From Nymphaea colorata (taxonomy: Eukaryota > Streptophyta > Magnoliopsida > Nymphaeales > Nymphaeaceae), in NCBI RefSeq assembly GCF_008831285.2, contig NC_045145.1:1054001-1118000 (forward strand): a DNA stretch of 64,000 bases. The letters are read 5' to 3'. Both the position numbers and the translations under genes were made by a program. The notes under the pieces are model-generated. The model did not search any database. It had not been told where the DNA came from and saw only the letters and a program-made list of their open reading frames with translations. Positions 10,306-60,558 of the stretch are shown piece by piece (the first letter of the stretch is position 1; each line of letters starts with the position of its first letter).

Positions 10306-11283
10306 TGTTATCGTTATGCATATCTTGATAAAAATTACATGATAATACACTATCTTGGATTGTATTATCCAAGTGCGACATGGCAGGTCATACTTTTCAA
10401 CCTGCCATGTCGTAATCACAGGTTCTTTTGGCAATCCATGGTAATTAGTGAAAAAGAGGCAGGCCCGTATCAAGAGAACTGAAAATATGAGTACCATATT
10501 TAGAATTTCTAGAAGAATCAAGCCCCTAAATACAATTTTTTCCACAACGGATCCGTTCTTTTCATCTCTCCAATTTACTGCATCACATGGAGTTATGTGT
10601 CCTATTTCCTACCTTACTCTGTTTGAATTAATATGGAAACATGAAGATGTGGTTCTCTTTTAAAAAAAAAAAAAAAAAAAATCTGTCATTCTTATCTCTG
10701 GTGTATAATATTCAAGTTTGTTATAATACAATGTTCATTTTCATTTTGGTTTTTCAGCTTTTCAGGGATGAGAATGATATCTGTGCGATACTTTGTCACA
10801 GAAGACAATCAATGGATTATCCTGACTGAGTATAAACCACAAGGGTGAACAAAAATATATCTTTTTTTTTCGTTTTCTTTTTTTGTTTTTGGCTCCCAAA
10901 TTCAAATTTTTTTTTAGAAGCCAAAAAAAAAGAACATTTATCTATTTCAGCATAAACAGAATAGACCAATTAAAATCGACGAGACATTCACCATATAATA
11001 GCAAGAGGAAGGAAGTCGTGTGGCACCGACAGCTTAAAGAAACAAATTGAAATATTCATTTTGCCTTTATGTATTTTCTTCCAAATTGTAATTAGAAAGA
11101 AGCCTTTAGCTTTTTTAGAGATAGAAGTTGGGTATTATCATGATCTTGTATACCAAAAATCTTGTAAGCGATAACCATTTTTTGTACTGTATATAGATAT
11201 GTTGCTCAAAGGAATCAATAAAAACAAGTTCTCTCCAGCTTTATCTTTCACCCTTCCTCTGTTTTCTTCTCTAAGTTTTCTCA
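10306..11283 (+). mobile_element. Copia LTR, copy A 3' side, near full length (about 0.98 kb)
   Basis: Starts TGTTATCGTTATGCATATC and ends TTTTCTCA. It contains a perfect 12-bp hairpin (GACATGGCAGGT with ACCTGCCATGTC, about 10377-10411), poly-A/T tracts, a TATA-like GTATATAGATATG and CAATAAAAAC. The next bases (CAGAGCAAC) look like a primer-binding site missing TGGTAT, so this may be a 5' LTR of another element rather than a 3' LTR. No target-site duplication was found. Confidence 0.6.
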
Positions 11284-12415
11284 CAGAGCAACAAGATCTT
11301 GATGGGTAAGGGAACAATGAGATAAGCAACTATAAGAAAGGCAGCTGTAGATAATCTTTTCCAACAGAAAAGTTAGGTAATGGAGACAATCCCTGTGATT
11401 GTACCTAGGGACTTGTGAGGAGTATGACTCATTCTTGGAAGTCTTGTAGTTTCGTCACTTATGATGGCTGTGAAGGGTAAAGCATTTAGACTAGACTTGA
11501 ACCATGGCTTCCATGCACGCTGTGAGAATTTTCAAAAAGGTTTCTTAAACATTGAGGAGAAAAGACCAAAAATTTACAAGAAGATGGTAACTGAAACTTG
11601 TTTAGATTCCTAACTCAGTCAGACTCACATACGAGCCAAGATTGGAAGGCTGCATTGGATCTACAGTGAAATTTTGATTCCCATTCTACCATCTTTTCTG
11701 GGTATTTGGGATTTTCCTAAGAAAACAATAAGATGGTGGTGGGACAAACATATAATTTCTGAGCAGCAGCATCTTTGAACGAATTCCCATCCATAAAGTA
11801 AATTTCACAAAAAACATGAGTTTTATTGCTCCAGACAATCAGAATCCTAATTTTTGACCTCAGTTGTTATTTTGGTTATGAACGCGACCACTCTTTGAAA
11901 CCTTAATTTAATGTCCAAATTTGGGTGAACTTGGGCCCAATTATATGGAGTAGCCCCATGAGATCTGCCTCAAAGTCAATTGAAAATATGTTAACCATAT
12001 ATTAAGTGCTTTATGAAAGGAAAAAAAATCTAGCTCCACCCCTGATTGCAGAAGAAAAAAAATCCCACAAAAATGAAAAAAGAACAGACAAGTCATGGGC
12101 TTGGTGCTGGGTGTGCAGGGCACCATTAATCTCTCCATCTGACTATCCGTGTAAGTTGTGGCCCCTTGTTTTGCAGTTACCTCTGTTCTAATTTTCTTTC
12201 CCTTGTTGTTATCTGAGCCAAGAACACCCTTTGGATCATGTCACCTATGCTATGGAAAAGTGCATCATGGCTCGAGTTTGACACGCAAGTTCGAGTTAGC
12301 CAGTATTTAACTGTTCCTTTACTATATATCATTTCTAGCGTAGGCAGCATATTTTCGTGGCTAATAATATGGAATGAATAAAAATTATTACCATTAAAAA
12401 GACATGTTTTTTTTT
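11284..12415 (+). other. Unidentified sequence following the LTR
   Basis: No coding signal. It may be the interior or flank of an LTR element but shows no gag or pol similarity. Repeated at 21062-22187 in the second copy of the block. Confidence 0.4.
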
Positions 12416-12724
12416 CTTTGCATCCTTGTATTGCCGAATGCATTGGAAGAAGCGGCGTATATATGAAAGAACCAGCACCAATGGAATTACAACAGAACAG
12501 CTACAAAGAACCAGCACCAAAGGATTTGCAACAGAACGACCTACCGCAAACAGAATCAGCTTCAAACCAAACCATGCAATTGTTGCGACCTGGAACCAAA
12601 ATTTTCAACAAATTAGCCAATATAAATAAATGAACATATTGCATGGACCAAATTGTACATATATCATAAGTTCTTCATATAGGTTAAGTTGATCTTTTAC
12701 ATACAAGAACTTGCAAGAAAAGAT

Positions 12725-13022
12725 GAAGAAGTCTTCCAAAATAAAGGCACTGCTTTCTGTCAACAAATATGAACTTTACCACCTTGTAGATAATAATAAG
12801 AATCATAGTGGGGTACTAAGTTGAGCAGTACTACTTCGAGGCTACCCTTTAATTGCACTTTGTAATATTTTTAATTGAAGAAGTCTTCCAAAATAAAGGC
12901 ACTGCTTTCTGTCAACAAATATGAACTTTACCGCCTTGTAGATAATAATAAGAATCATAGTGGGGTACTAAGTTGAGCAGTACTACTTCGAGGCTACCCT
13001 TTAATTGCACTTTGAAATATTT
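12725..13022 (+). repeat. Two-unit tandem repeat, period 152 bp
   Basis: Units start at 12725 and 12877 with GAAGAAGTCTTCCAAAATAA and run through TGGGGTACTAAGTTGAGCAG to TTAATTGCACTTTG. They differ by one base in CCACC/CCGCC and at the end. The same pair is at 22497 and 22649 in the second block. Confidence 0.9.
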
Positions 13023-13458
13023 TCGATACCCACTCCGAAGAAGTGCCATCCCAACTCAGACTTTCACTTGGATTGACCAAATGCATTTAAAATATTTGTA
13101 TACCCACTCAAACGTGCTCTTCTTCACAATTACAAGATTGGTTTGATTCGATAAGAAAGAAGATGAGATGGTTGCAAAAGATACTTTCGAACTTTTTATT
13201 TACCTCCTCAAATTGAATACAAGAGAACAAGAACATAGGTCGGATGATTGTCTTTTTAAACAATTTAAGAAGTTTTTTGCTACCTGAAAGTTTAAGTATC
13301 CTTTATAATTCTTTCTTTTCAATAACAAACCCACACTCTGCTGCTCCAAATAAGAAAATAAAGAAAAAAACAGTAAAAACGATGAAAAAGAAAGATAAGT
13401 GATTATGGAGCGAGCTTTTATATTAAACGAGCATTTAAGTTAAAAAGTTGAATTCCTC

Positions 13459-13982
13459 CATTCATGCTTCCCCTCCTTCTTAGAAGCACCCCCAACCTAT
13501 TCAGAATTCTATTTAAAAAAATAAATACATAAAATTCATTTTGGCCTGGACATGCTTTTCTCATTGTCATTTGTCTTAACACTGTTTGAAAACCATGCCT
13601 CAGTTTTCCGCTGGACAATTCATTTTAACACAAGTTATCCAGTGAAACTCATTTGAGACAGTTTCTACCAAAATTCATGCTTCCTCTCCTTCCTAGAAGC
13701 ACCCCCAACTTACAATTTTCAGAATTCTATTAAAAAAAATCTAATACTGCGGCTTTGGCAGCATCAAAATCAAGTGTGAATGTCATGTTTCGCAGCAGAT
13801 CTTTAATTCAATGTACCAAAAGTTTGGATGGGTTAGCATACCATCCATCTAGATGTTGGCCTGGACACGCTTTTCTCATTGTCTTTTTGTCTTAACACTA
13901 TTTGAAAACTTTGCCTCAGTTTTCCACGGACAATTCATTCAAGACAAGTTATCCAGTGAAACTCATTTGTGACAGTTTCCAC
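13459..13982 (+). repeat. Imperfect tandem duplication with internal insertion
   Basis: Unit 1 (about 13459-13671) and unit 2 (about 13672-13982) both run from TTCATGCTTCC.CTCCTTC through AGAAGCACCCCCAAC, TTTTCTCATTGTC, TGCCTCAGTTTTCC and GTTATCCAGTGAAACTCATT. Unit 2 carries about 100 extra bases around 13740-13855. Copied at about 23234-23760. Confidence 0.8.
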
Positions 13983-14329
13983 TTACAATGTCATTTATGT
14001 AGTGACTCATGGACCAATATTGGATTAGAAATTATCGTGCTTGATCAGATATATCCCAATTAAATAATTATGTCAATATTTGAAAAATTTATAATAACAA
14101 CCAAGTGGTGGAGTATGGTATATAAGTTGAAGGGAGCATTGGTGGTACTACTAATGTACCTAGCTCAAAGCCCTATAGACTTGGGAAACGAGGGGTCATA
14201 ATGCTTCTTCTTTTTTGAGTGGTGAGTTATTGACTTTGAAAGGGTAACAACAACTCGCTCAAGTTTAATAGAGTAACTGCTTGTATTACATAAAATGTGT
14301 TAAACAGAGAAATTTAAACTTGTGCTTTT

Positions 14330-15840
14330 AAGTGTGGATCAGACTCAACACTCCAACAGCAGTCACTGAAGCCATCATGTTTTTAAAAATTTTTGAAGGG
14401 GCCAAAGTGACTTTTTTTTTTCTTTTTCTTGACTGCCAAAGAGCAAGTTAATTTACATTTCTCAAAATCTGGGAGGGTACACTGAACTCATGATAACAGG
14501 GTAATTCTTTCCCTAATTCTGAAGGGCATTTTTTCCTCTTTCTAACTTGGGTAATTTGGCACCCGACCATTGACTTGAGTGCTGGGGGCTATTGACTTAG
14601 CATGAGGAAGAACAACTTATGCAAGACAAGTTCCACAGGGACAAATTATCACCATTCTGAGGTCAGTTCTTCAATGCATAGATAAATGGTTTACTCAAGT
14701 TCAATAAAATCAATTTTATGAAACTCGAACTTGACTTGTTTATAATCACGAGTTTTGAGTTAAGCTTGAGCTTAACAAAGCAAATTCGAGTCGAGCTTGA
14801 GTTAGCTCGACTCGTTTTACAGCTCTATCCACATGACACACACAAATGGACTTGTCCCCTATTTATAATGGTGAAACATGTCATGGATTTGGAATTGAAT
14901 GTCCAAGCCAACTACTCCAAAAACATTTGGATGAAGAAAAGAAATTCACTAATCAACTAAAAAATGAGATAGGATTTGAAATTAAGAAATGACATCGGAT
15001 TAGATTTAGATTCATATATGCATAAATATTCGAATGGATTCAGATTAATTAATTCAGTCGAATTCAGTTCAGATTCAAATATACAAAAATATCTGATCAG
15101 ATCCAGGTGGGACTTAGATTTAAATAAAAATTTTATATTCAATGCTCTTACAGTTTGTAAATCAGACAGATTCAGTTCAAAATATGGATTCAGATTCAAA
15201 TTCATATCTGAATATGAAATAGGATTCGGGTTGGATTCTGATTGTGACATCTGATTTCAGATTCAGATTAGGATGAAAAAAATGGATTTAGATCAGATTC
15301 AAATTATGAAATCTGATTCTGGATTCAGTTTTGGATGAGGAAAAAAATCAGATTCAGATTGTGGAATCTGATTTCTGATTCAAATTTGGATATAACCTTT
15401 CTTAAATTCGTATCCAAACTTGAATCCAAGTATAGAAGTATCCGTACGGACAAGAATATATTTTATTTGAATCGGATCCATTGGCATCCATCGTTGCAGA
15501 TTTTCTCACTTTTCTAATATTTACATTTTTAGTTTTTGTATTTAGGTCCATCGATTTTCAAGAAAACCATGGTCAGTCGTTCTATTGAGTCCTCCCAACT
15601 CCTCCAAGAGTATCGGTGACGACTGTTCCCGATGTTCTTAATGATAAGGTTGCGGAATAACTTCAGCTTCTCCAAGAGTACACCCAAAATTGCGTAACGT
15701 ACCAGCATGCTGGAGCTGTGGACATTGAGAAATGATTCATAATTGGGTGGTGGCCTTTTGGATATGAGTAATTACTTAAAACTAAATCTGAACTGAATCC
15801 GTATCCGATCCGATACTTATATATATATATCAGAATCTGT
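14330..15840 (+). mobile_element. Composite repeat copy B
   Basis: A 5' block (GGATCAGACTCAACACTCCA, TTTTTGAAGGGGCC, TCTCAAAATCTGGGAGGGTA) leads into TTGACTTGTTTATAATCACG and the GATTCAGATTC array. The block ends with TTTAGGTCCATCGATTTTCA and GTAACGTACCAGCATGCTGG. The head block recurs at 47015-47190 and the end at 57240-57440. It is non-coding; frames that stay open follow the degenerate array. Confidence 0.75.
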
Positions 15841-15921
15841 AAAACAAATTTCTTTTTTCTATTTAGACAGGAGCATATGTCATAAACGCGAATCTCTCTT
15901 CTGAAATCCTTCCTTAAATAT

Positions 15922-15922
<1 letters not shown>

Positions 15923-15957
<35 letters not shown>

Positions 15958-15963
15958 ATATAT
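15923..15963. repeat. (TA)n microsatellite
   Basis: AT dinucleotide tract, about 40 bp here and longer at 25701-25749 in the second block. This is the kind of length difference expected of alleles or assembly error. Confidence 0.85.
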
Positions 15964-16168
15964 CAATGAGCGGCGCCACCCAGTAAGAGAATCAATAAGA
16001 TTTTGCCAGGTAAAAAGTTTTAAAGTCTATCTTAAGTAGTCATCCTCCAAACGCGTCACAACTTCTCACAATGGAAAATTCTTTATATCATGCAAGCGAA
16101 CACATATACATGGAAAGAATGGTAAGGCGATGTTGGTCAAGCTAATGCTCCAGACAAGGATTGGACGC

Positions 16169-16579
16169 TCATTTAAGCCAAAACTCCCTTTGAGTGGGAT
16201 CCATTAGAGCCACAAGGACGGGTAGCCTTCGCTTGTTGCAGGCCACATCAGTATGGGGATTGATAACCGCGTCCACCATTGCCTCGAATTCCTCCGATTG
16301 AGGCATTATCTTCTTTTCCGTTTCGCTTGGCACCACTTCCTTAGGTGTGCTTAATCCTTGAGCGCTCACCCTAGGCCTGCTGACCTGCCCAAATGCAGAA
16401 GACACAAATCAATTTCTTGAAAACGTCACCGGTTTCATAATTGCCGCGAAGTGTGAATGGTTATCATGCTCAGTAGCTAGTAACAGTGAGTAGGCCTAGT
16501 AACAACAGTGTTTTCTTAAGCCATACCTCGGGCTTCTTCCTCTGAGGCACCGGCGCAACTCCTGCTTCCCGTGTGCAAA
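16169..16579 (-). pseudogene. Repeat-borne gene fragment with intron, copy B (unidentified product)
   Basis: The first exon, 16579-16527, is 53 bp here against 54 in copies A, C and D. The missing base (CGGCGCAAC against CGGCTGCAAC) is probably a sequencing error near a contig end. The intron donor is GTATGG and the acceptor TTTGGGCAG. The second exon, 16384-16169, is fully open for 71 codons plus stop. It reads VSRPRVSAQGLSTPKEVV, then EKKIMPQSEEFEAMVDAVIN, then KRRLPVLVALMDPTQREFWL and K. No domain is recognised. The exon lies tail to tail with the LTR beginning near 16929. Confidence 0.55.
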
Positions 16580-16928
16580 CTGCAACCACATAGGCATGAG
16601 AATGAACTATTACAACCACATTTCACATATGCAAGTGCAGATATAACTAAGCCAATGCATGAACACTCTACCAGCCTCCTATGGAAGCAGTGTTAAAACA
16701 TGGGAAAAAAAGAACTAAAGCATGTATGTGGTTGTGGTTCGGCATTTGGATGCATGCATCCATGGGAAAGGGAGCACTCTCTTTATTCATTCTTTGATGT
16801 TCTTGAGAGAAGATGGACTCTCAATATATAGAGTACAGGCCAGACCATTTTAGGTAAGATAATCAAGCAGGAATCTTACTGATAAACAAAGTGTCAAGAA
16901 AAAAGGGATCAGATCTCTTATCAAGATC

Positions 16929-17874
16929 TGCTATTGTTATGCAGATCTTGATAAAAATTACATTATAATACACTAGCTTGGAGTGTATTAACAAAGTGTG
17001 ACATGGCAGGTCGCACTTTTCAACCTGCCATGTCATAATCACAGGTTCTTTTGGCTATCCATAGTAAGTAAAAAGAGGCAGGCCCGTATCAAGAGACTGA
17101 AAATATGAGGACCATATTTAGAATTTCTAGAAGAATCAAGCCCCTAAATACAATTTTTTTCCACAACAGATCCGTTCTTTTCATCTCACCAATTTACTGC
17201 ATCACATGGAGTTTCTTTCTATTTACTGCCTTACTCTGTTTGAATTAATATGGAAAAATGAAGTGTGGTTCTCTTTTTTTAAAAAAAAAAAATCTGTCAG
17301 TTCTTATCTCTGGTGTATAATATTCAAGTTCTTATAATAAAATATTCATTTTGATTTTGGCTTTTCAGCTTTTCAGGGATGAGAATGATATCTACGCGAT
17401 ACTTTGTTACATAAGACAATCAATGGATTATTTATCCTGATTGAGTATAAACCCCAAGGGTTACCAAAAATATATCATTTTTTTCGTTTTCTTTTTTTTT
17501 GGCTCCCAAATTCAATTGTTTTTTTTTTTAGAAAAAAAAAAATGAACATTTATCTATTTCAGCCTAAACAGAATTTTAGACCAATTAAAATCGACCAGAC
17601 ATTCACCATATAATAGCAAGAGGAAGAAAGTCGTGTGGCACTGACAGTTTAAAGAAAAAATTGAAATATTCATTGTGCCTTTGTTAATTTCTTCCAAATT
17701 GTATTGAAAGCAGCCTTTAGCTTTTTAGAGATAGAAATTGTGTATTATCATCTTATGTACCAAAAATCTGTAAGCCATAACCTTTTTTTTACTCTATATA
17801 TGTTGGTCAAAGGAATCAATAAAAACCAGTTCTCTCCAGCTTTATTCCTCAGTTTTCTTCTCTAAGTTTTCTCT
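16929..17874 (+). mobile_element. Copia LTR, copy B (about 0.95 kb)
   Basis: Starts TGCTATTGTTATGCAG and ends TTTTCTCT (CA in other copies) against a primer-binding site. It holds the 12-bp-arm hairpin at 17000-17034, a TATATATG box near 17790 and CAATAAAAACC about 20 bp later, which is the U3-R order expected of an LTR. Confidence 0.7.
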
Positions 17875-17886
17875 TGGTATCATGAG
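17875..17886 (+). promoter_or_regulatory. Degenerate tRNA-iMet primer-binding site
   Basis: TGGTATCATGAG departs from the consensus TGGTATCAGAGC after the eighth base. The same variant is in copy C at 27689-27700, so it is not a sequencing slip. Confidence 0.75.
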
Positions 17887-18982
17887 GAAAATGAGAGAGG
17901 AAAATCGACTGCCCCTTCCGTTAACTCCAAAAAATCAAAGTTTGTAGAGAGGTTCTTCAGACACCTGGAATTGGAATAATCTTCTGCTGACAGCTAGAAT
18001 GCCTGAAGAATCAGCGCCGGCCTTCGTCTCTGCCACCTGATACACCTTCGTCTCAGTAAATTATTCCAGAGAACGGTGGAAAGGAAGTCAGGGAAGGGTT
18101 CCTTTCTCCCGGATTCTTCTGTACTCCGGCAGCAACACCTATCACCGGAATTTCTCAGGGTCGACTGAATTTCTCTGCTGCGGATGTCAGTGACGAGCCC
18201 ATTGCAGATCCTCACAAATCATCTCCAGAAATCTCCTCTCGGCAGCTCCTGTTCTCAGCCTACAGGTTCAGCTCGACAGCAGGTTCCCTCAACCATTCAC
18301 CGAGTCACAAACTCAGACAGTCATATTTGCTTCTGTTCAAAGGCTATGGTTTCTTCTCTGATTTAAGACGGCAAAAGGGCTTCTCCAACGGACGAAAGAG
18401 GGTGGAAACAGAATTTGGGCTGTCGGACTGTAATGAGGTTTTTTTTTTTGGCGTGCTTTGAACTATTTCTCTGTTTTCTCTGAGGAGAGCTTGACGGTGA
18501 TAGTCTGAGATCCCTGGATTTTCTGCCCCTTGAACGTGAGCATCAAAGAGAAATTCACGAAGCCTGCTCTGTTCGGTAGAATGAACACCACTGACTCGGG
18601 ATTCATCAAAGATCTTCATTCACTCCTCTCTATTTTGCTCTCGGCTCTGCAACTATGGCTTCTCTATTTTCTGAAGGTTAGTTTTTTTTCTCTTTCTCTG
18701 CGTCAAGAGAATTTGAGTTTTGGAAGTCGTGGAGTCAATACTTGGAGCCGGAAAAGGAGGAGGAAGACGTCTCTGCTGCTCGAGGGAGACCTGCTGCTTG
18801 GCTTGCTTGCCGAAGGAGGGGATAGTGAACCCTCATCCCCTCATATATCTCTGCCTCCTCTCCCTCCATGGTCGTGTCTCCGGATCGATCTTTGCGTGAT
18901 GACAGGAAGAGACGCAAGTGATTGTTTTTCCCGAAGCCCAGCTGACCATTGTCTTCCTTCTCTAAGAAAATGAGAAGGAACT
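17887..18982 (+). mobile_element. Copia untranslated leader, copy B
   Basis: About 1.1 kb between the primer-binding site and the gag start. It is full of short frames on both strands that break at single-base differences from copy C (28 kb), so none is credited as a gene. It includes a poly-T/GCGTGCTTTGAACTA landmark also at about 49540. Confidence 0.6.
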
Positions 18983-20046
18983 ATGGCAGACCAAGAAAAG
19001 AATAATGGCGACATCAGCAATTCAAAAATTCTCATGACTGATTCCTTCTTTTTACATCGTTCTGATATGATAATCCAGAAGTGTTTCCTTCTTTTACATC
19101 ATTCTGATAATCCAGAATGTGTTGGTATCTCAAGCACTTAACGGTGACAATTATGCCATTTGGAGTAGAGCAATGTAATGGCCTTGTCACAAAAATAAAC
19201 TAGGCTTCATAGATGGATCTATCAAAGAGCCAAAAATGGAGATAGAGAATCGTGCCTTATGAGTTAGATATGCAATAAGATGATTCTTTCATGGATTTAA
19301 AATTCATTAGCAAAGAAATTGCTGCTAGTATTGCTTATGCTACTTCTGCTCAAGATGTATGGGAAGATTTAAAAAGCAGGTTTACTCAGAGTTTAGCACC
19401 AAGAATATATCAACTGCAGAGTTCTATATGACAATTTCAACAGAGACTCTATCAGTTACTATGTACTACACAAAAACTAAGGTGGTTTATGGATGAACTT
19501 AACTCTTATTCTCCCATACCGTCTGGTTCATGTGGTGCTATGAGAATTTACTCAGATCATATTAAAAGAGAAGAGTAATCCAATTCTTGATGGGGCTAAA
19601 CGACTCGTAGTGAGCAATTCATGGTCAAATCTTACTACTGGATCCCTTGCCAAACATTAACAAAGTTTATGCTTTAGTTCTACAGGAAGAAAAACACATG
19701 AAGCAAGATTCTCGATGTCACATTCCTCGTCACCAGTTTGGCCTCCATTGGAACTGGCCGAGGTCATCTCTGCAGCCACCGATCTTCAATTGTCGACGAC
19801 ATCATTGTCATCGACATTGGTGCTATATAAGACGACAATGTACTGGTCTTGGGAGGAGACGGGCAATGTCATTATGGTGCCAGGTGCAAGGTGCTTTATC
19901 TCTCCCTCTTTCTGTATGTGTGGTACACTAGACAGACCATGTCATGCTTGGCTGGCAAGACAACAGAATTCCTTGCAGAATTGGGTTCACCAAGTGCTCT
20001 TAGGATGTTAGGAGGAGAGTCCACTATACGGTGCAACCATAGTTGA
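18983..20046 (+). pseudogene. Copia gag pseudogene, copy B
   Basis: The start MADQEKNN is at 18983. Frames then give the Gag N-terminal pattern LGFIDGSIKEPK, a decayed SWI-like block, EIAASIAYATSAQDVWEDLK, SRFTQSLAPRIYQLQ, the VTMYYTK segment, LNSYSPIPSG, FLMGLND and PNINKVYALVLQEEK. It is riddled with stops and shifts, and several lesions are missing bases relative to copy C. There is no zinc knuckle and no pol. As Gag it would have formed capsids; it cannot now. Confidence 0.8.
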
Positions 20047-20429
20047 ACTGGCAAGCTTCACACGGTTATATGAAATCGTAAGCTTGTCCAAATGGGACTC
20101 AAGAAACCATGGTTAAACTCTGAAAGAAATAACCGGTGACATGTCGTGGACCATTTAACCTTCGAAGTTTGAAATCCGTATTCACTAGAACCTGCAGGTA
20201 TCTTAGTTAGAACATGTTCTTTGATGTTTGCCGTTGGAAACAAAAAAAAAGAGCCGACAATAGCTGAGCGCAGCTAATATTCGTCCCAGGTCAAAACTGT
20301 AGGTTATGAACATAACCTATACAGCTTGCTAGCAGTTCCATTCAGATGATGAGGCAAGATTTGATCTGGCAAGCTCTTATCTCTTATTACAACTTGTGCT
20401 TTTAATTAATTTACACATGAAGAAAATGT

Positions 20430-20529
20430 NNNNNNNNNNNNNNNNNNNNNNNNNNNNNNNNNNNNNNNNNNNNNNNNNNNNNNNNNNNNNNNNNNNNNNN
20501 NNNNNNNNNNNNNNNNNNNNNNNNNNNNN
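20430..20529. other. Assembly gap, exactly 100 N
   Basis: A fixed-length run of N, which by convention marks a gap of unknown size. The flanks are the end and the start of the same 9.7-kb sequence. Confidence 0.99.
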
Positions 20530-20530
20530 T

Positions 20531-21061
20531 TTTTCAGCTTTTCAGGGATGAGAATGATATCTGTGCGATACTTTGTCACAGAAGACAATCAATGGATTAT
20601 CCTGACTGAGTATAAACACAAGGGTGAACAAAAATATATTTTTTTTTTCGTTTTCTTTTTTTGTTTTTGGCTCCCAAATTCAAATTTTTTTTAGAAGCCA
20701 AAAAAAAAAAGAACATTTATCTATTTCAGCATAAACAGAATAGACCAATTAAAATCGACGAGACATTCACCATATAATAGCAAGAGGAAGGAAGTCGTGT
20801 GGCACCGACAGCTTAAAGAAACAATTGAAATATTCATTTTGCCTTTATGTATTTTCTTCCAAATTGTAATTAGAAAGAAGCTTTAGCTTTTTAGAGATAG
20901 AAGTTGGGTATTATCATGATCTTGTATACCAAAAATCTTGTAAGCGATAACCATTTTTTGTACTGTATATAGATATGTTGCTCAAAGGAATCAATAAAAA
21001 CAAGTTCTCTCCAGCTTTATCTTTCACCCTTCCTCTGTTTTCTTCTCTAAGTTTTCTCACA
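20531..21061 (+). mobile_element. Copia LTR 3' portion, second-block copy of 10751-11283
   Basis: Runs from the gap through TATA-like GTATATAGATATG and CAATAAAAAC to TTTTCTCA, then CAGAGCAAC. The LTR start is lost in the gap. Confidence 0.65.
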
Positions 21062-22496
21062 GAGCAACAAGATCTTGATGGGTAGGGAACAATGAGATAA
21101 GCAACTATAAGAAAGGCAGCTGTAGATAATCTTTTCCAACAGAAAAGTTAGGTAATGGAGACAATCCCTGTGATTGTACCTAGGGACTTGTGAGGAGTAT
21201 GACTCATTCTTGGAAGTCTTGTAGTTTCGTCACTTATGATGGCTGTGAAGGGTAAGCATTTAGACTAGACTTGAACCATGGCTTCCATGCACGCTGTGAG
21301 AATTTTCAAAAAAGGTTTCTTAAACATTGAGGAGAAAAGACCAAAAATTTACAAGAAGATGGTAACTGAAACTTGTTTAGATTCCTAACTCAGTCAGACT
21401 CACATACGAGCCAAGATTGGAAGGCTGCATTGGATCTACAGTGAAAATTTTGATTCCCATTCTACCATCTTTTCTGGGTATTTGGGATTTTCCTAAGAAA
21501 ACAATAAGATGGTGGTGGGACAAACATATAATTTCTGAGCAGCAGCATCTTTGAACGAATTCCCATCCATAAAGTAAATTTCACAAAAAACATGAGTTTT
21601 ATTGCTCCAGACAATCAGAATCCTAATTTTGACCTCAGTTGTTATTTTGGTTATGAACGCGACCACTCTTTGAAACCTTAATTTAATGTCCAAATTTGGG
21701 TGAACTTGGGCCCAATTATATGGAGTAGCCCCATGAGATCTGCCTCAAAGTCAATTGAAAATATGTTAACCATATATTAAGTGCTTTATGAAAGGAAAAA
21801 AAATCTAGCTCCACCCCTGATTGCAGAAGAAAAAAATCCCACAAAAATGAAAAAAGAACAGACAAGTCATGGGCTTGGTGCTGGGTGTGCAGGGCACCAT
21901 TAATCTCTCATCTGACTATCCGTGTAAGTTGTGGCCCTTGTTTTGCAGTTACCTCTGTTCTAATTTTCTTTCCCTTGTTGTTATCTGAGCCAAGAACACC
22001 CTTTGGATCATGTCACCTATGCTATGGAAAAGTGCATCATGGCTCGAGTTTGACACGCAAGTTCGAGTTAGCCAGTATTTAACTGTTCCTTTACTATATA
22101 TCATTTCTAGCGTAGGCAGCATATTTTCGTGGCTAATAATATGGAATGAATAAAAATTATTACCATTAAAAAGACATGTTTTTTTTTCTTTGCATCCTTG
22201 TATTGCCGAATGCATTGGAAGAAGCGGCGTATATATGAAAGAACCAGCACCAATGGAATTACAACAGAACAGCTACAAAGAACCAGCACCAAAGGATTTG
22301 CAACAGAACGACCTACCGCAAACAGAATCAGCTTCAAACCAAACCATGCAATTGTTGCGACCTGGAACCAAAATTTTCAACAAATTAGCCAATATAAATA
22401 AATGAACATATTGCATGGACCAAATTGTACATATATCATAAGTTCTTCATATAGGTTAAGTTGATCTTTTACATACAAGAACTTGCAAGAAAAGAT

Positions 22497-22795
22497 GAAG
22501 AAGTCTTCCAAAATAAAGGCACTGCTTTCTGTCAACAAATATGAACTTTACCACCTTGTAGATAATAATAAGAATCATAGTGGGGTACTAAGTTGAGCAG
22601 TACTACTTCGAGGCTACCCTTTAATTGCACTTTGTAATATTTTTAATTGAAGAAGTCTTCCAAAATAAAGGCACTGCTTTCTGTCAACAAATATGAACTT
22701 TACCGCCTTGTAGATAATAATAAGAATCATAGTGGGGTACTAAGTTGAGCAGTACTACTTCGAGGCTACCCTTTAATTGCACTTTGAAATATTTT
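22497..22795 (+). repeat. 152-bp tandem repeat, second-block copy
   Basis: Same two units as 12725-13022, starting at 22497 and 22649. Confidence 0.9.
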
Positions 22796-23233
22796 CGATA
22801 CCCACTCCGAAGAAGTGCCATCCCAACTCAGACTTTCACTTGGATTGACCAAATGCATTTTAAAATATTTTGTATACCCACTCAAACGTGCTCTTCTTCA
22901 CAATTACAAGATTGGTTTGATTCGATAAGAAAGAAGATGAGATGGTTGCAAAAGATACTTTCGAACTTTTTTATTTACCTCCTCAAATTGAATACAAGAG
23001 AACAAGAACATAGGTCGGATGATTGTCTTTTTAAACAATTTAAGAAGTTTTTTGCTACCTGAAAGTTTAAGTATCCTTTATAATTCTTTCTTTTCAATAA
23101 CAAACCCACACTCTGCTGCTCCAAATAAGAAAATAAAGAAAAAAACAGTAAAAACGATGAAAAAGAAAGATAAGTGATTATGGAGCGAGCTTTTATATTA
23201 AACGAGCATTTTAAGTTAAAAAGTTGAATTCCT

Positions 23234-23760
23234 CCATTCATGCTTCCCCTCCTTCTTAGAAGCACCCCCAACCTATTCAGAATTCTATTTAAAAAAATAA
23301 ATACATAAAATTCATTTTGGCCTGGACATGCTTTTCTCATTGTCATTTGTCTTAACACTGTTTGAAAACCATGCCTCAGTTTTCCGCTGGACAATTCATT
23401 TTAACACAAGTTATCCAGTGAAACTCATTTGAGACAGTTTCTACCAAAATTCATGCTTCCTCTCCTTCCTAGAAGCACCCCCAACTTACAATTTTCAGAA
23501 TTCTATTAAAAAAATCTAATACTGCGGCTTTGGCAGCATCAAAATCAAGTGTGAATGTCATGTTTCGCAGCAGATCTTTAATTCAATGTACCAAAAGTTT
23601 GGATGGGTTAGCATACCATCCATCTAGATGTTGGCCTGGACACGCTTTTCTCATTGTCCTTTTTGTCTTAACACTATTTGAAAACTTTGCCTCAGTTTTC
23701 CACGGGACAATTCATTCAAGACAAGTTATCCAGTGAAACTCATTTGTGACAGTTTCCACT
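23234..23760 (+). repeat. Imperfect tandem duplication, second-block copy
   Basis: Counterpart of 13459-13982, with the same insertion in the second unit. Confidence 0.8.
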
Positions 23761-24119
23761 TACAATGTCATTTATGTAGTGACTCATGGACCAATATTGG
23801 ATTAGAAATTATTCGTGCTTGATCAGATATATCCCAATTAAATAATTATGTCAATATTTGAAAAATTTATAATAACAACCAAGTGGTGGAGTATGGTATA
23901 TAAGTTGAAGGGAGCATTGGTGGTACTACTAATGTACCTAGCTCAAAGCCCTATAGACTTGGGAAACGAGGGGTCATAATGCTTCTTCTTTTTTGAGTGG
24001 TGAGTTATTGACTTTGAAAGGGTAACAACAACTCGCTCAAGTTTAAATAGAGTAACTGCTTGTATTACATAAAATGTTGTTAAACAGAGAAATTTAAACT
24101 TGTGCTTTTAAGTGTGGAT

Positions 24120-25620
24120 CAGACTCAACACTCCAACAGCAGTCACTGAAGCCATCATGTTTTTAAAAATTTTTGAAGGGGCCAAAGTGACTTTTTTTTT
24201 TCTTTTTCTTGACTGCCAAAGAGCAAGTTAATTTACATTTCTCAAAATCTGGGAGGGTACACTGAACTCATGATAACAGGGTAATTCTTTTCCCTAATTC
24301 TGAAGGGCATTTTTTCCTCTTTCTAACTTGGGTAATTTGGCACCCGGACCATTGACTTGAGTGCTGGGGCTATTGACTTAGCATGAGGAAGAACAACTTA
24401 TGCAAGACAAGTTCCACAGGGACAAATTATCACCATTCTGAGGTCAGTTCTTCAATGCATAGATAAATGGTTTACTCAAGTTCAATAAAATCAATTTTAT
24501 GAAACTCGAACTTGACTTGTTTATAATCACGAGTTTTGAGTTAAGCTTGAGCTTAACAAAGCAAATTCGAGTCGAGCTTGAGTTAGCTCGACTCGTTTTA
24601 CAGCTCTATCCACATGACACACACAAATGGACTTGTCCCCTATTTATAATGGTGAAACATGTCTGATTTGAATTGAATGTCCAAGCCAACTACTCCAAAA
24701 ACATTTGGATGAAGAAAAGAAATTCACTAATCAACTAAAAATGAGATAGGATTTGAAATTAAGAAATGACATCAGATTAGATTTAGATTCATATATGCAT
24801 AAATATTCGAATGGATTCAGATATAATTAAATTCAGTCGAATTCAGTTCAGATTCAAATATACAAAAATATCTGATCAGATCCAGGTGGGACTTAGATTT
24901 AAATAAAAATTTTATATTCAATGCTCTTACAGTTTGTAAATCAGACAGATTCAGTTCAAAATATGGATTCAGATTCAAATTCATATCTGAATATGGAAAT
25001 AGGATTCGGGTTGGATTCTGATTGTGACATCTGATTTCAGATTCAGATTAGGATGAAAAAAATGGATTTAGATCAGATTCAAATTATGAAATCTGATTCT
25101 GGATTGAGTTTTGGATGAGGAAAAAAATCAGATTCAGATTGTGGAATCTGATTTCTGATTCAAATTTGGATATAACCATTCTTAAATTCGTATCCAAACT
25201 TGAATCCAAGTATAGAAGTATCCGTACGGACAAGAATATATTTTATTTGAATTGGATCCATTGGCATCCATCGTTGCAGATTTTCTCACTTTTCTAATAA
25301 TTTACATTTTTAGTTTTTGTATTTAGGTCCATCAATTTTCAAGAAAACCATGGTCAGTCGTTCTATTGAGTCCTCCCAACTCCTCCAAGAGTATCGGTGA
25401 CGACTGTTCCCGATGTTCTTAATGATAAGGTTGCGGAATAACTTCAGCTTCTCCAAGAGTACACCCAAAATTGCGTAACGTACCAGCATGCTGGAGCCTG
25501 TGGACATTGAGAAATGATTCCATAATTGGGTGGTGGCCTTTTGGATATGAGTAATTACTAAAAACTAAATCTGAACTGAATCCGTATCTGATCAGAAACT
25601 TATATATATATATCAGAATC
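24120..25620 (+). mobile_element. Composite repeat copy C
   Basis: Second-block counterpart of 14330-15840, with identical order of head block, GATTCAGATTC array and TTTAGGTCCATCAATTTTCA end. Confidence 0.75.
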
Positions 25621-25696
25621 TGTAAAACAAATTTCTTTTTTCTATTTAGATAGGAGCATATGTCATAAAGGCGAATCTCTCTTCTGAAATCCTTCC

Positions 25697-25700
<4 letters not shown>

Positions 25701-25749
<49 letters not shown>
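25701..25749. repeat. (TA)n microsatellite
   Basis: Uninterrupted AT dinucleotides; the counterpart at 15923 is shorter and interrupted. Confidence 0.85.
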
Positions 25750-25751
<2 letters not shown>

Positions 25752-25954
25752 ATGAGGGGCACCACCCAGTAAGGGAATCAATAAGATTTTGCCAGGTAAA
25801 AAGTTTTAAAGTCTATCTTAAGTAGTCATCCTCCAAACGCGTCACAACTTCTCACAATGGAAAATTCTTTATGTCATGCAAGCAAACACATATACATGGA
25901 AAGAATGGTAAGGCGATGTTGGTCAAGCTAATGCTCCAGACAAGGATTGGACGC

Positions 25955-26373
25955 TCATTTAAGCCAAAACTCCCTTTGAGTGGGATCCATTAGAGCCACA
26001 AGGACGGGTAGCCTTCGCTTGTTGCAGGCCACATCAGTATGGGGATTGATAACCGCGTCCACCATTGCCTCGAATTCCTCTGATTGAGGCATTATCTTCT
26101 TTTCCGTTTCGCTTGGCACCACTTCCTTAGGTGTGCTTAATCCTTGAGCGCTCACCCTAGGCCTGCTGACCTGCCCAAATGCAGAAGACACAAATCAATT
26201 TCTTGAAAACGTTACCGGTTTCATAAGTTGCCGCGAAGTGTGAATGGTTATCATGCCTCAGTAGGCCTAGTAACAACAGTGAGTAGGCCTAGTAACAACA
26301 GTGTTTTCTTAAGCCATACCTCGGGCTTCTTCCTCTGAGGCACCGGCTGCAACTCCTGCTTCCCGTGTGCAAA
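25955..26373 (-). pseudogene. Repeat-borne gene fragment with intron, copy C (unidentified product)
   Basis: The best-preserved copy. The first exon, 26373-26320 (54 bp), reads FAHGKQELQPVPQRKKPE after a GTTGCAG acceptor. The intron is 26319-26171 (donor GTATGG, acceptor GGGCAG), longer than in copy A because AGTAGGCCTAGTAACAACAG is duplicated inside it. The second exon, 26170-25955, is open for 71 codons plus TGA and identical in predicted protein to copy B. The phase-0 junction gives KPE-VSR. The upstream end of the gene is not found. A small secreted or membrane protein is unlikely, since no hydrophobic segment is seen. Function unknown. Confidence 0.55.
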
Positions 26374-26723
26374 CTGCAACCACATAGGCATGAGAATGAA
26401 CTATTACAACCACATTTCACATATGCAAGTGCAGATATAACTAAGCCAATGCATGAACACTCTACCAGCCTCCTATGGAAGCAGTGTTAAAACATGGGGA
26501 AAAAAAGAACTAAAGCATGTATGTGGTTGTGGTTCGGCATTTGGATGCATGCATCCATGGGAAAGGGAGCACTCTCTTTATTCATTCTTTGATGTTCTTG
26601 AGAGAAGATGGACTCTCAATATATAGAGTACAGGCCAGACCATTTTAGTTAAGATAATCAAGCAGGAATCTTACTGATAAACAAAGTGTCAAGAAAAAAG
26701 GGATCAGATCTCTTATCAAGATC

Positions 26724-27688
26724 TGCTATTGTTATGCAGATCTTGATAAAAATTACATTATAATACACTAGCTTGGAGTGTATTAACAAAGTGTGACATG
26801 GCAGGTCGCACTTTTCAACCTGCCATGTCATAATCACAGGTTCTTTTGGCTATCCATAGTAATTAGTAAAAAAGAGGCAGGCCCGTATCAAGAGAACTGA
26901 AAATATGAGGACCATATTTAGAATTTCTAGAAGAATCAAGCCCCTAAATACAATTTTTTTCCACAACAGATCCGTTCTTTTCATCTCACACAATTTACTG
27001 CATCACATGGAGTTTTCTGTTCTATTTACTGCCTTGCTCTGTTTGAATTAATATGGAAAAATGAAGATGTGGTTCTCTTTTTTTAAAAAAAAAAAAATCT
27101 GTCAGTTCTTATCTCTGGTGTATAATATTCAAGTTCGTTATAATAAAATATTCATTTTGATTTTGGCTTTTCAGCTTTTCAGGGATGAGAATGATATCTA
27201 CGCGATACTTTGTTACATAAGACAATCAATGGATTATTTATCCTGATTGAGTATAAACCCCAAGGGTTACCAAAAATATATCATTTTTTTTCGTTTTCTT
27301 TTTTTTTGGCTCCCAAATTCAATTGTTTTTTTTTTGAGAAGCCAAAAAAAAATGAACATTTATCTATTTCAGCCTAAACAGAATTTTAGACCAATTAAAA
27401 TCGACCAGACATTCACCATATAATAGCAAGAGGAAGAAAGTCGTGTGGCACTGACAGTTTAAAGAAACAAATTGAAATATTCATTGTGCCTTTGTTAATT
27501 TCTTCCAAATTGTATTGCAAAGCAGCCTTTAGCTTTTTTAGAGATAGAAATTGTGTATTATCATCTTATGTACCAAAAATCTTGTAAGCCATAACCTTTT
27601 TTTACTCTATATATGTTGGTCAAAGGAATCAATAAAAACCAGTTCTCTCCAGCTTTACTTCCTCAGTTTTCTTCTCTAAGTTTTCTCT
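26724..27688 (+). mobile_element. Copia LTR, copy C (about 0.97 kb)
   Basis: Counterpart of 16929-17874, with the hairpin near 26790-26830, TATATATG near 27608, CAATAAAAACC and the primer-binding site at 27689. Confidence 0.7.
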
Positions 27689-27700
27689 TGGTATCATGAG
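27689..27700 (+). promoter_or_regulatory. Degenerate tRNA-iMet primer-binding site, copy C
   Basis: TGGTATCATGAG, identical to copy B. Confidence 0.75.
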
Positions 27701-28809
27701 GAAAATGAGAGAGGAAAATCGACTGCCCCCTTCCATTAACTCCAAAAAATCAAAGTTTGTAGAGAGGTTCTTCAGACACCTGGAATTGGAATAATCTTCT
27801 GCTCAACAGCTAGAAATGCCTGAAGAATCAGCGCCGGCCTTCGTCTCTGCCACCTGATACACCTTCGTCTCAGCAAATTATTCCAGAGAACGGTGGGAAA
27901 GGAAGTCAGGGAAGGGTGCCTTTCTCGCCGGATTCTTCTGTACTCCGGCAGCAACACCTATCACCGGAATTTCTCAGGGTCGACTGAATTTCTCTGCTGC
28001 AGATGTCAGTGACGAGCACATTGCAGATCCTCACAAATCATCTCCAGAAAACTCCTCTCGGCAGCTCCTGTTCTCAGCCTACAGGTTCAGCTCGACAGCA
28101 GGTTCCCTCAACCGTTCACCGAGTCACAAACTCAGACAGTCATATTTGCTTCTGTTCAAAGGCTATGGTTTCTTCTCTGATTTAAGACGGCAAAAGGGCT
28201 TCTCCAACGGACGAAAGAGGGTGGAAACAGAATTTGGGGCTGTCGGACTGTAATGAGGTTTTTTTTTTGTGCGTGCTTTGAACTATTTCTCTGTTTTCTC
28301 TGAGGAGAGCTTGACGGTGATAGTCTGAGATCCCTGGATTTTCTGCCCCTTGAACGTGAGCATCAAAGCAGAAATTCACGAAGCCTGCTCTGTTTGTGTA
28401 GAATGAACACCACTGACTCGGGATTCATCAAAGATCTTCATTCACTCCTCTCTATTTTGCTCTCGGCTCTGCAACTATGGCTTCTCTATTTTCTGAAGGT
28501 TAGTCTTTTTTCTCTTTCTCTGCGTCAAGAGAATTTGAGTTTTGGAAGTCGTGGAGTCAATACTTGGAGCCGGAAAAGGAGGAGGAAGATGTCTGCTGCT
28601 GCTCAAGGGAGACCTGCTGCTTGGCTTGCTTGCCGAAGGAAAGGGGATAGTGAACCCTCATCCCCTCATATATCTCTGCCTCCTCTCCCTCCATTGTCGT
28701 GTCTCCGGATCGATCTTTGCGTGATGACAGGAAGAGACGCAAGTGATTGTTTTTTCCCGAAGCCCAGCTGACCATTGTCTTCCTTCTCTAAGAATAATGA
28801 GAAGGAACT
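27701..28809 (+). mobile_element. Copia untranslated leader, copy C
   Basis: Counterpart of 17887-18982. The open frames (for example a 125-codon frame from 28394) are not conserved in frame with copy B, and none is called a gene. Confidence 0.6.
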
Positions 28810-29876
28810 ATGGCAGACCAAGAAAAGAATAATGGCGACCAAGAAAAAATTCTCATGACTGATTCCTTCTTTTTACATCATTCTGATATGATAATCCCAG
28901 AAGTGTTTCCTTCTTTTTACATCATTCTGATAATCCCAGAAGTGTGTTGGTATCTCAAGCACTTAACAGTGACAATTACGCCATGTGGAGTAGAGCAATG
29001 GTAATGGCCTTGTCAACAAAAATAAACTAGGCTTCATAGATGGATCTATCAAAGAGCCAAAAGATGGAGATATGAGAATGTTGCCTTATGAGTTAGATAT
29101 GCAATAAGATGATTCTTTCATGGATTTAAAATTATATTAGCAAAGAAATTGCTGCTAGTATTGCTTATGCTACTTCTGCTCAAGATGTATGGGAAGATTT
29201 AAAAAGCAGGTTTACTCAGAGTTTAGCACCAAGAATATATCAACTGCAGAGTTCTATATGACAATTTCAACAAGAGACTCTATCAGTTACTATGTACTAC
29301 ACAAAAACTAAGGTGTTATGGGATGAACTTAACTCTTATTCTCCCATACCGTCTGGTTCATGTGGTGCTATGAGAATTTACTCAGATCATATTAAAAGAG
29401 GAAGAGTAATCCAATTCTTGATGGGGCTAAACGACTCGTAGTGAGCAATTCATGGTCAAATCTTACTACTGGATCCCTTGCCAAACATTAACAAAGTTTA
29501 TGCTTTAGTTCTACAGGAAGAAAAACAACATGAAGCAAGATTCTCGATGTCACATTCCTCGTCACCAGTTTGGCCTCCATTGGAACTGGCCGAGGTCATC
29601 TCTGCAGCCACCGGATCTTCATTGTCGACGACATCATTGTCATCGACATTGGTGCTATATAAGACGACAATGTACTGGTCTTGGGAGGAGACGGGCAATG
29701 TCATTATGGTGCCAGGTGCAAGGTGCTTTATCTCTCCCTCTTTCTGTATGTGTGGTACACTAGACAGACCATGTCATGCTTGGCTGGCAAGACAACAGAA
29801 TTCCTTGCAGGAATTGGGTTCACCAAGTGCTCTTAGGATGTTAGGAGGAGAGTCCACTAATACGGTGCAACCATAG
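28810..29876 (+). pseudogene. Copia gag pseudogene, copy C
   Basis: Better preserved than copy B. It starts MADQEKNNGDQEKILMTDSF at 28810, then, in shifting frames, the NYAMWSRAMVMAL-like block, NKLGFIDGSIKEPKDGDM, SAQDVWEDLKSRFTQS, LAPRIYQLQSS, VTMYYTKTKVLWDELNSYSP, RGRVIQFLMGLNDS and PNINKVYALVLQEEKQHEAR. The order and motifs are Copia Gag. Real lesions shared with copy B include a stop after the QLQSSI segment and one after LNDS, so the element was dead before any duplication. No protease, integrase or RT follows. Confidence 0.85.
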
Positions 29877-30268
29877 TTGAACTGGCAAGCTTCACACGGT
29901 TATAGAAATCGTAAGCTTGTCCAAATGGGACTCAAGAAACCATGGTTAAACTCTGAAAAGAAATAACCGGTGACATGTCGTGGACCATTTAACCTTCGAA
30001 GTTTGAAATCCGTATTCACTAGAACCTGCAGGTATCTTAGTTAGAACATGTTCTTTGATGTTTGCCGTTGGAAACAAAAAAAAAAGAGCCGACAATAGCT
30101 GGAGCGCAGCTAATATTCGTCAATCCCAGGTCAAACTGTAGGTTATGAACATAACCTATACAGCTTGCTAGCAGTTCCATTCAGATGATGAGGCAAGATT
30201 TGATCTGGCAAGCTCTTATCTCTTATTACAACTTGTGCTTTTAATTAATTTACACATGAAGAAAATGT

Positions 30269-30635
30269 AGTCTCCCTCAAACACAAAAAGTGAATATAGC
30301 CTGACTCAACAGTTAAATTAATGGACAATGTGTCATAACAGGAAAATAAGTGACACAGAATATGAAGTTATAAGTTATAAGCACAAGCAGAGTGATGAGA
30401 TCAATTAGCACGTCAGCCGTGCAGCTTCTTTGCTGATCATTTGTTTGACGAGTTATGTGTGACTCTATGTCAGCAGTAACACATTATTACTGCCTTACGA
30501 ATCTGCCTTAAAAATTCCTATAACATGTGTTCCATGGATCTGGTTCATTTTTTAAGTAAATTAGGCTTCATAGATAGATCTATCAAAGAGACAAAATAAA
30601 TAATCGTGCTTTCGTTTTTTTGTTAAATTCAAGTT
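30269..30635 (+). other. Mostly unidentified; short gag echo at 30550-30600
   Basis: Positions 30550-30600 repeat the gag sequence for LGFIDxSIKE (AGGCTTCATAGATAGATCTA) found at 29025-29060. The rest shows no gene. Confidence 0.5.
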
Positions 30636-30639
30636 GTTG

Positions 30640-31065
30640 GAAGAGTCTTAAGTCTGGTGCTCTTGAAAAGTAAGTGATATCGCTTGTTGTTTTGCACACT
30701 CGGTGTCTCCAGCAGGGCGGAAGATCACTTCAATGAGACTTTTTTTAATTTCAAGGACTTCTTAAGTCTGGTGCTCATGAAAAGTAAGTGATAACCCTTG
30801 TTGTTTTCCACACTCGGTGTCTCCGCAGGGCAGCAGATCACATCAATGTGATTTTTTTTAATTTCAAGGACTTCTTATTTCCACATCCAGCAACTTAGTT
30901 GGCACATAAGATTACATCAACAAGACTTTTTCTTCACAACCATTAACAACATATTTCCAATGTCATGTTCCCCTCCCTTATTGTCAGTTTTCAACTTTTT
31001 TTTGTGGTCTTTTCAATTGAATGGCCTACACTGCATTTAGTAGACGGGACTGTTGGTAGGGCTGC
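30640..31065 (+). mobile_element. Foldback-family end with internal tandem duplication
   Basis: Two units of about 117-120 bp from about 30645 and 30763, each with AAGTCTGGTGCTC.TGAAAAG, CACACTCGGTGTCTCC, AGATCAC.TCAATG and poly-T/AATTTCAAGGACTTCTT. Then come GATTACATCAACAAGACTTT, TTGAATGGCC and GTTGGTAGGGCTGCA. The same order, single-copy, forms the left arm of the foldback element at 53418. Confidence 0.7.
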
Positions 31066-31780
31066 ACAGGAGTGTCGAGCTTGGCCAGCTCGTAATCATT
31101 TCTTACAAGACGACCGTGTGATATGGGCCGGCAGGCAGACAGTTTATATTTGAGTGTTAGGAGTGTCAACCTCTGATACTGGAAAAGCTGAGTCAAAGAG
31201 GTCATAGTGGGGCGGCACCCCAAAACACCAAACACAGGCTGTAGACCAAGTTTGGGTTGGGTAAGAGTTTCGGCTCTGTGCCACACGATGGGTCCGCCGC
31301 ACAACCCGAATAACATTGCTTAGCACCTCAATCAAATGCCACCTAATTTGAGTCAATAGTCATTCACATTCAACACAGCCAGCCACAATAGTGTGACTGC
31401 GACGCTGAAAAATTCTGCTTTTGAAAGGAGTCGATGAAGCTGGCCTAACTCCAGTCCGGTGATTTGGATGAAGTTGTGAGTCAGCACAAAAATATTAACA
31501 CTTGGATTTGTTTTTTAAAGAAAAACATAATCAGACAATGTATAAAAACTAATAAAAAACAATAAGAGGTGGACTGAATCAAATTGATTTAGTATAGATT
31601 TGAAGGAATCGGCTGATTCAAGCCAATATTTCCAACTAATCTGATGAGATAGTTTGACTAGCAAGACACAGCGTACTCAACTTGATCCCATCCTTGCTTC
31701 ATTTACGTTGGTTAAAACTAAACTATGCATGCTATTATATGGATCCCCATATTTGCACTAACCAAGCAATAGAGTAGTTG
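31066..31780. other. Intergenic stretch, no gene seen
   Basis: Includes CGTGTGATATGGGCCGGCAG at about 31116, also present near 37876 upstream of the next RLK locus. Minus-strand frames of 70-96 codons match nothing known to me. Confidence 0.5.
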
Positions 31781-43764: not shown

Positions 43765-44589
43765 CTAGAGCACTCCAAAACCAACCAAAACTTTTGGGAT
43801 GCAAACAGTCATGAAACTCAAAAACTCAATAGCAAAAGGGTTAAACAAGCTCTCAGGTAGTGTACCAGTTAGATTGTTCATTTCCACATTAAATAATGTT
43901 AAGTGGGTTAATCTTCTCAACTTAGAAGGAATGGTCCCGTACACATGATTTTGACCAATATTAAGGTACTCCAGTTTTGAGATGTTGGCAAAAGTGACTA
44001 GAATGGTGACCATGAGCCTATTACCATAAAGGTTTATGCGCTTGAGTTCCAGCAAACTGCCTAGGAACTCATGAATGCTTCCATAGAATTGGTTATCTCG
44101 AGCTGACAGTATTTGGAGACCTTGGCAATGGCTCAGTGTTTGTGGGATCAACCCCTCAAAATTGTTTTTTCTTATAGATAGATTTTCTAACTGAGAGAGG
44201 AGACTAAAATCAATGGGAAGATGACCATGGAAACTGTCATTTGTAAGATCAAGAACTTGTAAGAAGGAGAGATTGCTGATGTATGGAGAGAGAGTACCTT
44301 CAAGTGCCTTTTTGGAGAGGTTCAGAGCAACTACCCTTGGTGAACCACATCCACATGAAACTCCATTCCAGTCACAGAAAGAGATGTTGGAATTTCAATT
44401 TGATAACACGTTATGAGAGTCTTTAGTGACAAGGGATTTGAAAGATAGCAATGCGAATTGATCAGTCACGTTGCTCAGAGAAACAAGGGCGGAGGGCACC
44501 TCCCTTTGGCCAAGAACCACAATCAAGGTGAATGAGGAAAAACACAAAAGAAAGACGAGCGGCTGAGGTGACCGACCGGTGGTTGCCAT
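43765..44589 (-). pseudogene. LRR receptor-like kinase pseudogene 4, truncated 5' half
   Basis: Read leftward from 44589: MATTGRSPQPLVFLLCFSSF and the rest of the signal peptide, then LRRNT DQFALLSFKSLVTKDSHNVL, a TGA at 44397-44395 where pseudogene 2 has TGG (LSN-W), WNGVSCGCG, and about six LRRs in one uninterrupted frame to a stop at 43765. Homology to the other RLKs ends after LSFMT near 43810; the last dozen residues come from unrelated sequence. The LRR array's end, the membrane span and the kinase are missing. Apart from the single nonsense codon the frame is clean for 274 codons, so it is the least decayed ectodomain here. Confidence 0.9.
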
Positions 44590-60458: not shown

Positions 60459-60558
60459 NNNNNNNNNNNNNNNNNNNNNNNNNNNNNNNNNNNNNNNNNN
60501 NNNNNNNNNNNNNNNNNNNNNNNNNNNNNNNNNNNNNNNNNNNNNNNNNNNNNNNNNN
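60459..60558. other. Assembly gap, exactly 100 N
   Basis: Second fixed-length gap. Unlike the first, its flanks show no duplication of each other within this window. Confidence 0.99.

Follow-up and report, generated by a model that had tools for sequence, protein, structure and literature searches.

The 64,000-nucleotide window of Nymphaea colorata that we analyzed (C8:1054001-1118000; positions without a prefix count from the first base of this whole stretch) carries two nearly identical 9.7-kb sequences in tandem, separated by a run of 100 Ns. Judging from the assembled sequence, this is very probably one 9.7-kb stretch that was written twice, a false duplication of either kind, whether the two copies represent the same sequence or two alleles, and a dovetail overlap of two contigs appears well supported as its source. 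Support for the overlap comes from the end-to-end match of the copies, the coincidence of their boundaries with the gap, the single-copy state of the block in paralogues, and a loss of bases towards both contig ends. The duplication is of a known artefact kind, false duplication at contig boundaries, and is nothing biologically new. An earlier note on this DNA had proposed a false tandem duplication from overlapping contig ends, in which the features of the block are counted twice and probably exist once. Both parts of that proposal withstood the analysis, on the strength of the gap coincidence, the single-copy collinear paralogues and the two-sided decay in deletions.

The window contains 100-base runs of N at 20430-20529 and 60459-60558. 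A single BLASTN match paired 10750-20429 (copy 1, forward strand, 9,680 bases) with 20530-30268 (copy 2, same strand, 9,739 bases) over 9,769 columns at 98.32%. Copy 1 is the tail of the left contig, which we read as overlap and hence as duplicate, and copy 2 is the head of the right contig. The match runs from end to end, with 10750 pairing with the first base of copy 2 and 30268 with the last base of copy 1. No bases were left over at 20429 or 20530, both repeat boundaries lying exactly on the 100-N gap as they do in a dovetail, and the junction between the copies coincides with the run of Ns at 20430-20529, a scaffold gap between contigs that is probably a negative gap, or overlap. A homotype false duplication has just this arrangement, tandem copies of the same orientation on either side of an assembly gap. 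The offset between the copies was 9780 at the start, fell to its lowest value, 9772, after 12162 (1.4 kb from the start) and rose to 9839 at the end. BLASTN and global alignment thus reproduced what the earlier note had reported on all three points: the same sequence in the same orientation on either side of the gap, boundaries that agree with the gap to the base, and the course of the offset.

We then compared the copies by global pairwise alignment under three scorings. Copy 1 and copy 2 differed by 43 substitutions and 103 indels (43-46 and 101-103, respectively, across scorings), with bases absent from copy 1 in 78 places and from copy 2 in 25 (77-78 and 24-25). A first count of 95 substitutions, made on a multiple alignment, was discarded, many of these being shifts beside indels. 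Of the 85 indels in that multiple alignment, 72 involved a single base, and 52 of the 72 lay within runs of at least two, a raw count taken without a chance baseline. An excess of indels over substitutions is a mark of consensus error and not of evolution, and the differences between the copies are of this error type. All 43 substitutions were confined to 14997-19305, a tract of 4.3 kb, and there were none in the remaining 5.4 kb.

To place the block among its relatives, a 601-base query from it was searched against the genome (407,766,735 bases in 783 contigs), which returned matches on the same chromosome and elsewhere; the matches listed in this search and in the one with 15300-16400 of copy 1 included the high-numbered, presumably unplaced contigs C780 (93%), C774 (87%) and C496 (82%). 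Three collinear paralogues were fetched with their flanks, 20-30 kb each: C8:815951-828268 (reverse strand), C8:1300398-1313702 (forward) and C4:4480174-4491875 (forward, parts missing). In all three, collinearity with the window starts in the left flank (8.0 or 8.8 kb), crosses 10750, spans the block and extends past 30268 to 31.1 kb, and a second copy of the block was absent from every one of them within the sequence fetched. The enclosing block on the forward strand, 5085-31101, is 26,017 bp as assembled and shrinks to 16,237 bp when the overlap is merged; the best paralogue, C8:1297492-1313702, measures 16,211 bp. A fourth relative, C8:846155-857003, is internally rearranged.

The paralogues also provided a yardstick for consensus quality. 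Decay was scored in 1.5-kb steps on matches of at least 700 bp and at least 94%, counting deletions of 1-2 bases as short; these were paralogues on C8 only, since no C4 match passed. Moving outward from the gap, the left contig had 11.7, 9.0, 7.6, 5.7, 4.9, 0.7, 1.3, 1.0 and 0.0 short deletions per kb, and the right contig 7.6, 1.0, 1.3, 0.0, 2.1, 1.2 and 0.2; steps farther out gave 0.0-1.9 per kb. In both contigs, short deletions thus become rarer away from the gap, and consensus quality differs between the copies: it falls towards 20429 in copy 1, while in copy 2 it is low mainly in the first 1.5 kb. Substitutions relative to the C8 paralogues showed no rise towards the gap.

Two further contig ends, on either side of the gap C8:838898-838997, served as controls, with the limitation that each is partly the reference for the other. 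In the contig starting at C8:838998, deletions per kb were 9.4, 38.1, 26.0, 7.1 and 9.7 through the first 7.5 kb and 1.3-4.4 from there to 15 kb. With up to 38 short deletions per kb relative to paralogues at 1.5-3 kb in, this is a very poor end that would frameshift genes. The contig ending at C8:838897 had 8.3 (from 121 bases only) and 6.1 at 1.5-4.5 kb and 0.3-2.0 farther in; its last 2.9 kb found no match and fell outside the scoring. Loss of bases towards the contig end was thus seen at all four ends tested. The earlier note had described each copy as losing single bases towards its own gap side, like poorly polished contig ends, and the decay against paralogues and both controls bear this out.

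The individual differences were also polarised with the paralogues. Among the 78 losses in copy 1, 45 were assigned to copy 1 (15 ties, 1 unscored), and among the 25 in copy 2, 16 were assigned to copy 2 (1 tie). Assigned losses lay nearer 20429 for copy 1, with medians of 17845 versus 12055 for copy 2 in copy 1 coordinates (Mann-Whitney p=6e-6). For the 43 substitutions, the paralogues sided with copy 1 in 32 and with copy 2 in 5, with 6 ties.

Several observations count against an unmerged overlap. Polarisation was noisy, with contrary events in 17 of the 78 copy-1 losses and 8 of the 25 copy-2 losses; 12 of those 17 fell in 16750-19749, largely inside the tract 14997-19305. An earlier polarisation with repeats from within the window had given 18 versus 5 for copy-1 losses (55 of the 78 being ties or lacking a relative) and 5 versus 3 for copy-2 losses (17 of the 25 likewise). 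Short insertions in the left contig ranged from 2.0 to 10.7 per kb, with the peak of 10.7 in the final 1.5 kb, and the tail is thus prone to more than deletions. The right contig had 3.4-11.0 per kb, apart from two steps at 13.5-16.5 kb with 15.8 and 17.7, which were scored against the eroded beginning of the control contig C8:838998. A dovetail was found at one of the three gaps examined (20430, as against 60459 and C8:838898), and is therefore not the rule in this assembly. Finally, the sequence belongs to a paralogous family, so a true unresolved tandem array could also have broken the assembly here.

The tract at 14997-19305 of copy 1 (forward strand), which holds all the substitutions and probably has a mixed or paralogue-derived consensus, needs an account of its own. 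We counted private and shared substitutions with the two best paralogues as reference, under three filters. With the strictest filter, 10750-14996 (3,006 sites) had 27 locus-specific substitutions common to both copies and none private to either. In 14997-19305 (3,285 sites), 5 were shared, 26 were private to copy 2 and 1 was private to copy 1, so that copy 1 was without 26 of the 31 locus-specific substitutions of copy 2 (shared versus copy-2-private between the two regions, Fisher p=8e-12). In 19306-20429 (796 sites), 5 were shared and none was private to copy 2, and 6 apparent copy-1 sites were alignment shifts. Looser filters gave 27 copy-2-private versus 2 copy-1-private sites (5 shared) and 30 versus 6 (7 shared) in the tract; in 10750-14996 the apparent private sites were 2 and 8 for copy 1 and 0 and 1 for copy 2. 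The copy-1-private sites of 19306-20429, numbering 11, 8 and 6 at the three filters in the five-way alignment, were rejected as substitutions: they sit mostly in clusters at 19782-19788 and 20289-20293 that the pairwise alignment resolves as indels, with no substitutions. Copy 2 thus carries a normal locus-specific load throughout, and copy 1 has lost most of that load in one tract. Of the 27 copy-2-private sites under the middle filter, the fourth paralogue covered 16 and sided with copy 1 at all of them.

In 17750-18249 copy 1 differed from the C8:1305 paralogue at 2 of 496 positions and from copy 2 at 7 of 499, and in 18250-18749 it was about equally near to both (4 of 493 and 3 of 499). 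At four sites copy 1 agrees with the C8:1305 paralogue against copy 2 and the C8:823 paralogue; two of them, 18100 and 18295, are also substitutions in the pairwise alignment, and the remaining two lie beside indels. The C8:1305 paralogue has therefore likely contributed to the final part of the tract. It was not plainly copied there, because five sites in 17750-19305 unite copies 1 and 2 against it. The idea that the whole tract is a plain copy of this paralogue was rejected, since in 14750-17749 copy 1 differs from it by 7-14 positions per 500 bp, some of these being alignment shifts. For 15300-16400 of copy 1, no assembled locus scored above copy 2 by BLAST score among the 40 of 497 first-look candidates that were scored; copy 2 was nearest at 98%, followed by C8:1307790 at 97%. 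Past 19305 copy 1 resumes the locus's own variants.

We think that reads from other members of the family probably went into forming or polishing the copy-1 consensus of the tract. The more specific proposal, that the tract represents misassigned reads of at least one other paralogue, is a sub-question within the overlap explanation and not a rival to it, and it is the account towards which we lean. A single copy-1-private substitution in the strictest set is what a majority consensus would be expected to leave, and the nearness to the C8:1305 paralogue in 17750-18249 together with the four shared sites points the same way. The divergence from that paralogue in 14750-17749, the five contrary sites, the nearness of 15300-16400 to copy 2 and the return of own-locus variants past 19305 all pull against it. 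Alternatively, the tract may be genuine DNA, belonging to an allele or to an extra copy missing from the assembly, in which a 4.3-kb segment was gene-converted from a member of the segmental-duplication family; the overlap would then join two haplotypes that differ only there. We regard this as unlikely.

The substitutions also bear on a heterotype false duplication, in which the contig ends would represent the two alleles that a heterozygous individual carries at one locus. That 43 substitutions exist at all speaks for two alleles, and the 27 copy-2-private sites under the middle filter include 13 C>T or G>A changes, 12 of which fall on a copy-1 CpG, the pattern of real methylated DNA. Private changes would be expected on both sides if the alleles were of equal age, and we found 26 in copy 2 versus 1 in copy 1, which would be unexpected unless gene conversion had intervened; nor would such alleles be expected to have every substitution in 4.3 kb and none in the other 5.4 kb. 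This clustering and the 26:1 asymmetry misfit two alleles of equal age, so the allelic reading is disfavoured, and we give it little chance. The suggestion of the earlier note that a few substitutions indicate two haplotypes was accordingly rejected, the confinement to 14997-19305 and the one-sided private changes speaking against it.

A real recent tandem duplication, or a longer array at whose junction the assembler failed and left the gap, is very improbable: repeats do break assemblies at repeat ends and the block does belong to a paralogous family of this genome, but the block is single in the three collinear paralogues within the 20-30 kb fetched for each, 5.4 of the 9.7 kb are free of substitutions yet hold many indels, private substitutions are almost absent from copy 1 in the part where the two differ, and the indels track contig-end quality, so two diverged copies lack independent evidence.

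Under the preferred explanation, an unmerged contig overlap, the left contig (to 20429) and the right contig (from 20530) would both have read through one 9.7-kb stretch. The assembler would have left them unfused, probably owing to the errors in their tails, which match at only 98.3%, and to the membership of the sequence in a segmental-duplication family. The scaffolder would then have placed them one after the other with the standard gap of 100 Ns. Reads would be expected to show a single copy, and the tract in copy 1 would be a consensus contaminated by paralogous reads.

If so, about 9.8 kb of scaffold, including repeats and gene remnants, are probably double-counted, with consequences for annotation and for copy-number studies. 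Probable false deletions are also numerous at the assembly's contig ends, reaching 38 per kb at one of the controls, and would break reading frames. For most of its length the block is better represented by copy 2, whose low quality is mainly limited to its first 1.5 kb. In practice, most of the block is best taken from copy 2, and the sequence next to the gap should be treated with caution, over 7.5 kb at the end of the left contig and over 1.5 kb at the start of the right one.

We also examined the gene content of the block. The earlier note had placed a gag sequence in it, and this was not borne out: there was no Pfam gag match in stop-to-stop open reading frames of at least 85 aa (10 of the 13 listed for 20530-31101 and two from copy 1). 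An open reading frame on the reverse strand at 22107-22376 weakly matched the EXS domain (E=1.7e-5; 24.7 bits versus a Pfam cutoff of 25). It may be what that note called a gene fragment, and perhaps represents a captured gene fragment. Each copy of the overlap contains two units of a 152-bp tandem repeat, at 12724-13023 and 22496-22795, and extra partial matches suggest that the same tandem pair occurs in several paralogues.

Against four fetched paralogous loci (C8:815951-828268, C8:846155-857003, C8:1297492-1313702 and C4:4477278-4491875, the last on the left-flank side only), the block 5085-31101 as a whole lies in reverse orientation between its flanks, with breakpoints at 5081/5085 and 31097/31101. 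Both breakpoints lie within contigs, which suggests a genuine inversion of about 16.2 kb, and we infer that the window, rather than the paralogues, changed orientation. A mobile element with a target-site duplication was considered for the sharp ends at 5085 and 31101 and rejected, as the 5-mers at the ends differ and no terminal inverted repeat was seen. Elsewhere in the family, C8:814678-860738 contains two copies in opposite orientation flanking the gap C8:838898-838997, a large inverted repeat, and the contig to the right of that gap starts in sequence matching C8:828411-833772 reversed. Between 32000 and 45000 the window holds fragments of leucine-rich-repeat genes (Pfam LRR_1 and LRR_8) in direct and inverted copies, for example at 33015-33503 and 39454-40116 on the forward strand and 43765-44394 on the reverse strand.

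Overlaps of this sort have been reported before. BiSCoT merges unfused overlaps in scaffolds built from optical maps and was tried on plants among others (PMC7649008; PMC8389630); in the terms used in PMC8389630, they are negative gaps or artifactual tandem duplications. The cases described for BiSCoT resemble ours in having overlapping contigs unfused in the scaffolds of large eukaryotic genomes, plants included, and differ in having a 13-N Bionano gap and overlaps that are usually allelic (PMC7649008), whereas here the gap is 100 Ns and an allelic origin is unsupported. A gap between duplicated pairs on one scaffold is among the marks of false duplication listed in PMC9516828. The closest counterpart is the homotype false duplication of the type "overlapping sequences at contig boundaries" described by the Vertebrate Genomes Project (PMC8081667). 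That description concerns vertebrate genomes and overlap-layout-consensus assemblers, unlike the present case, which also adds a paralogue-like tract. What the two have in common is a dovetail at a contig boundary, tandem copies with a gap and unequal consensus quality, and on these structural marks, as far as assembled bases can tell, the duplication in this window would be of the homotype kind.

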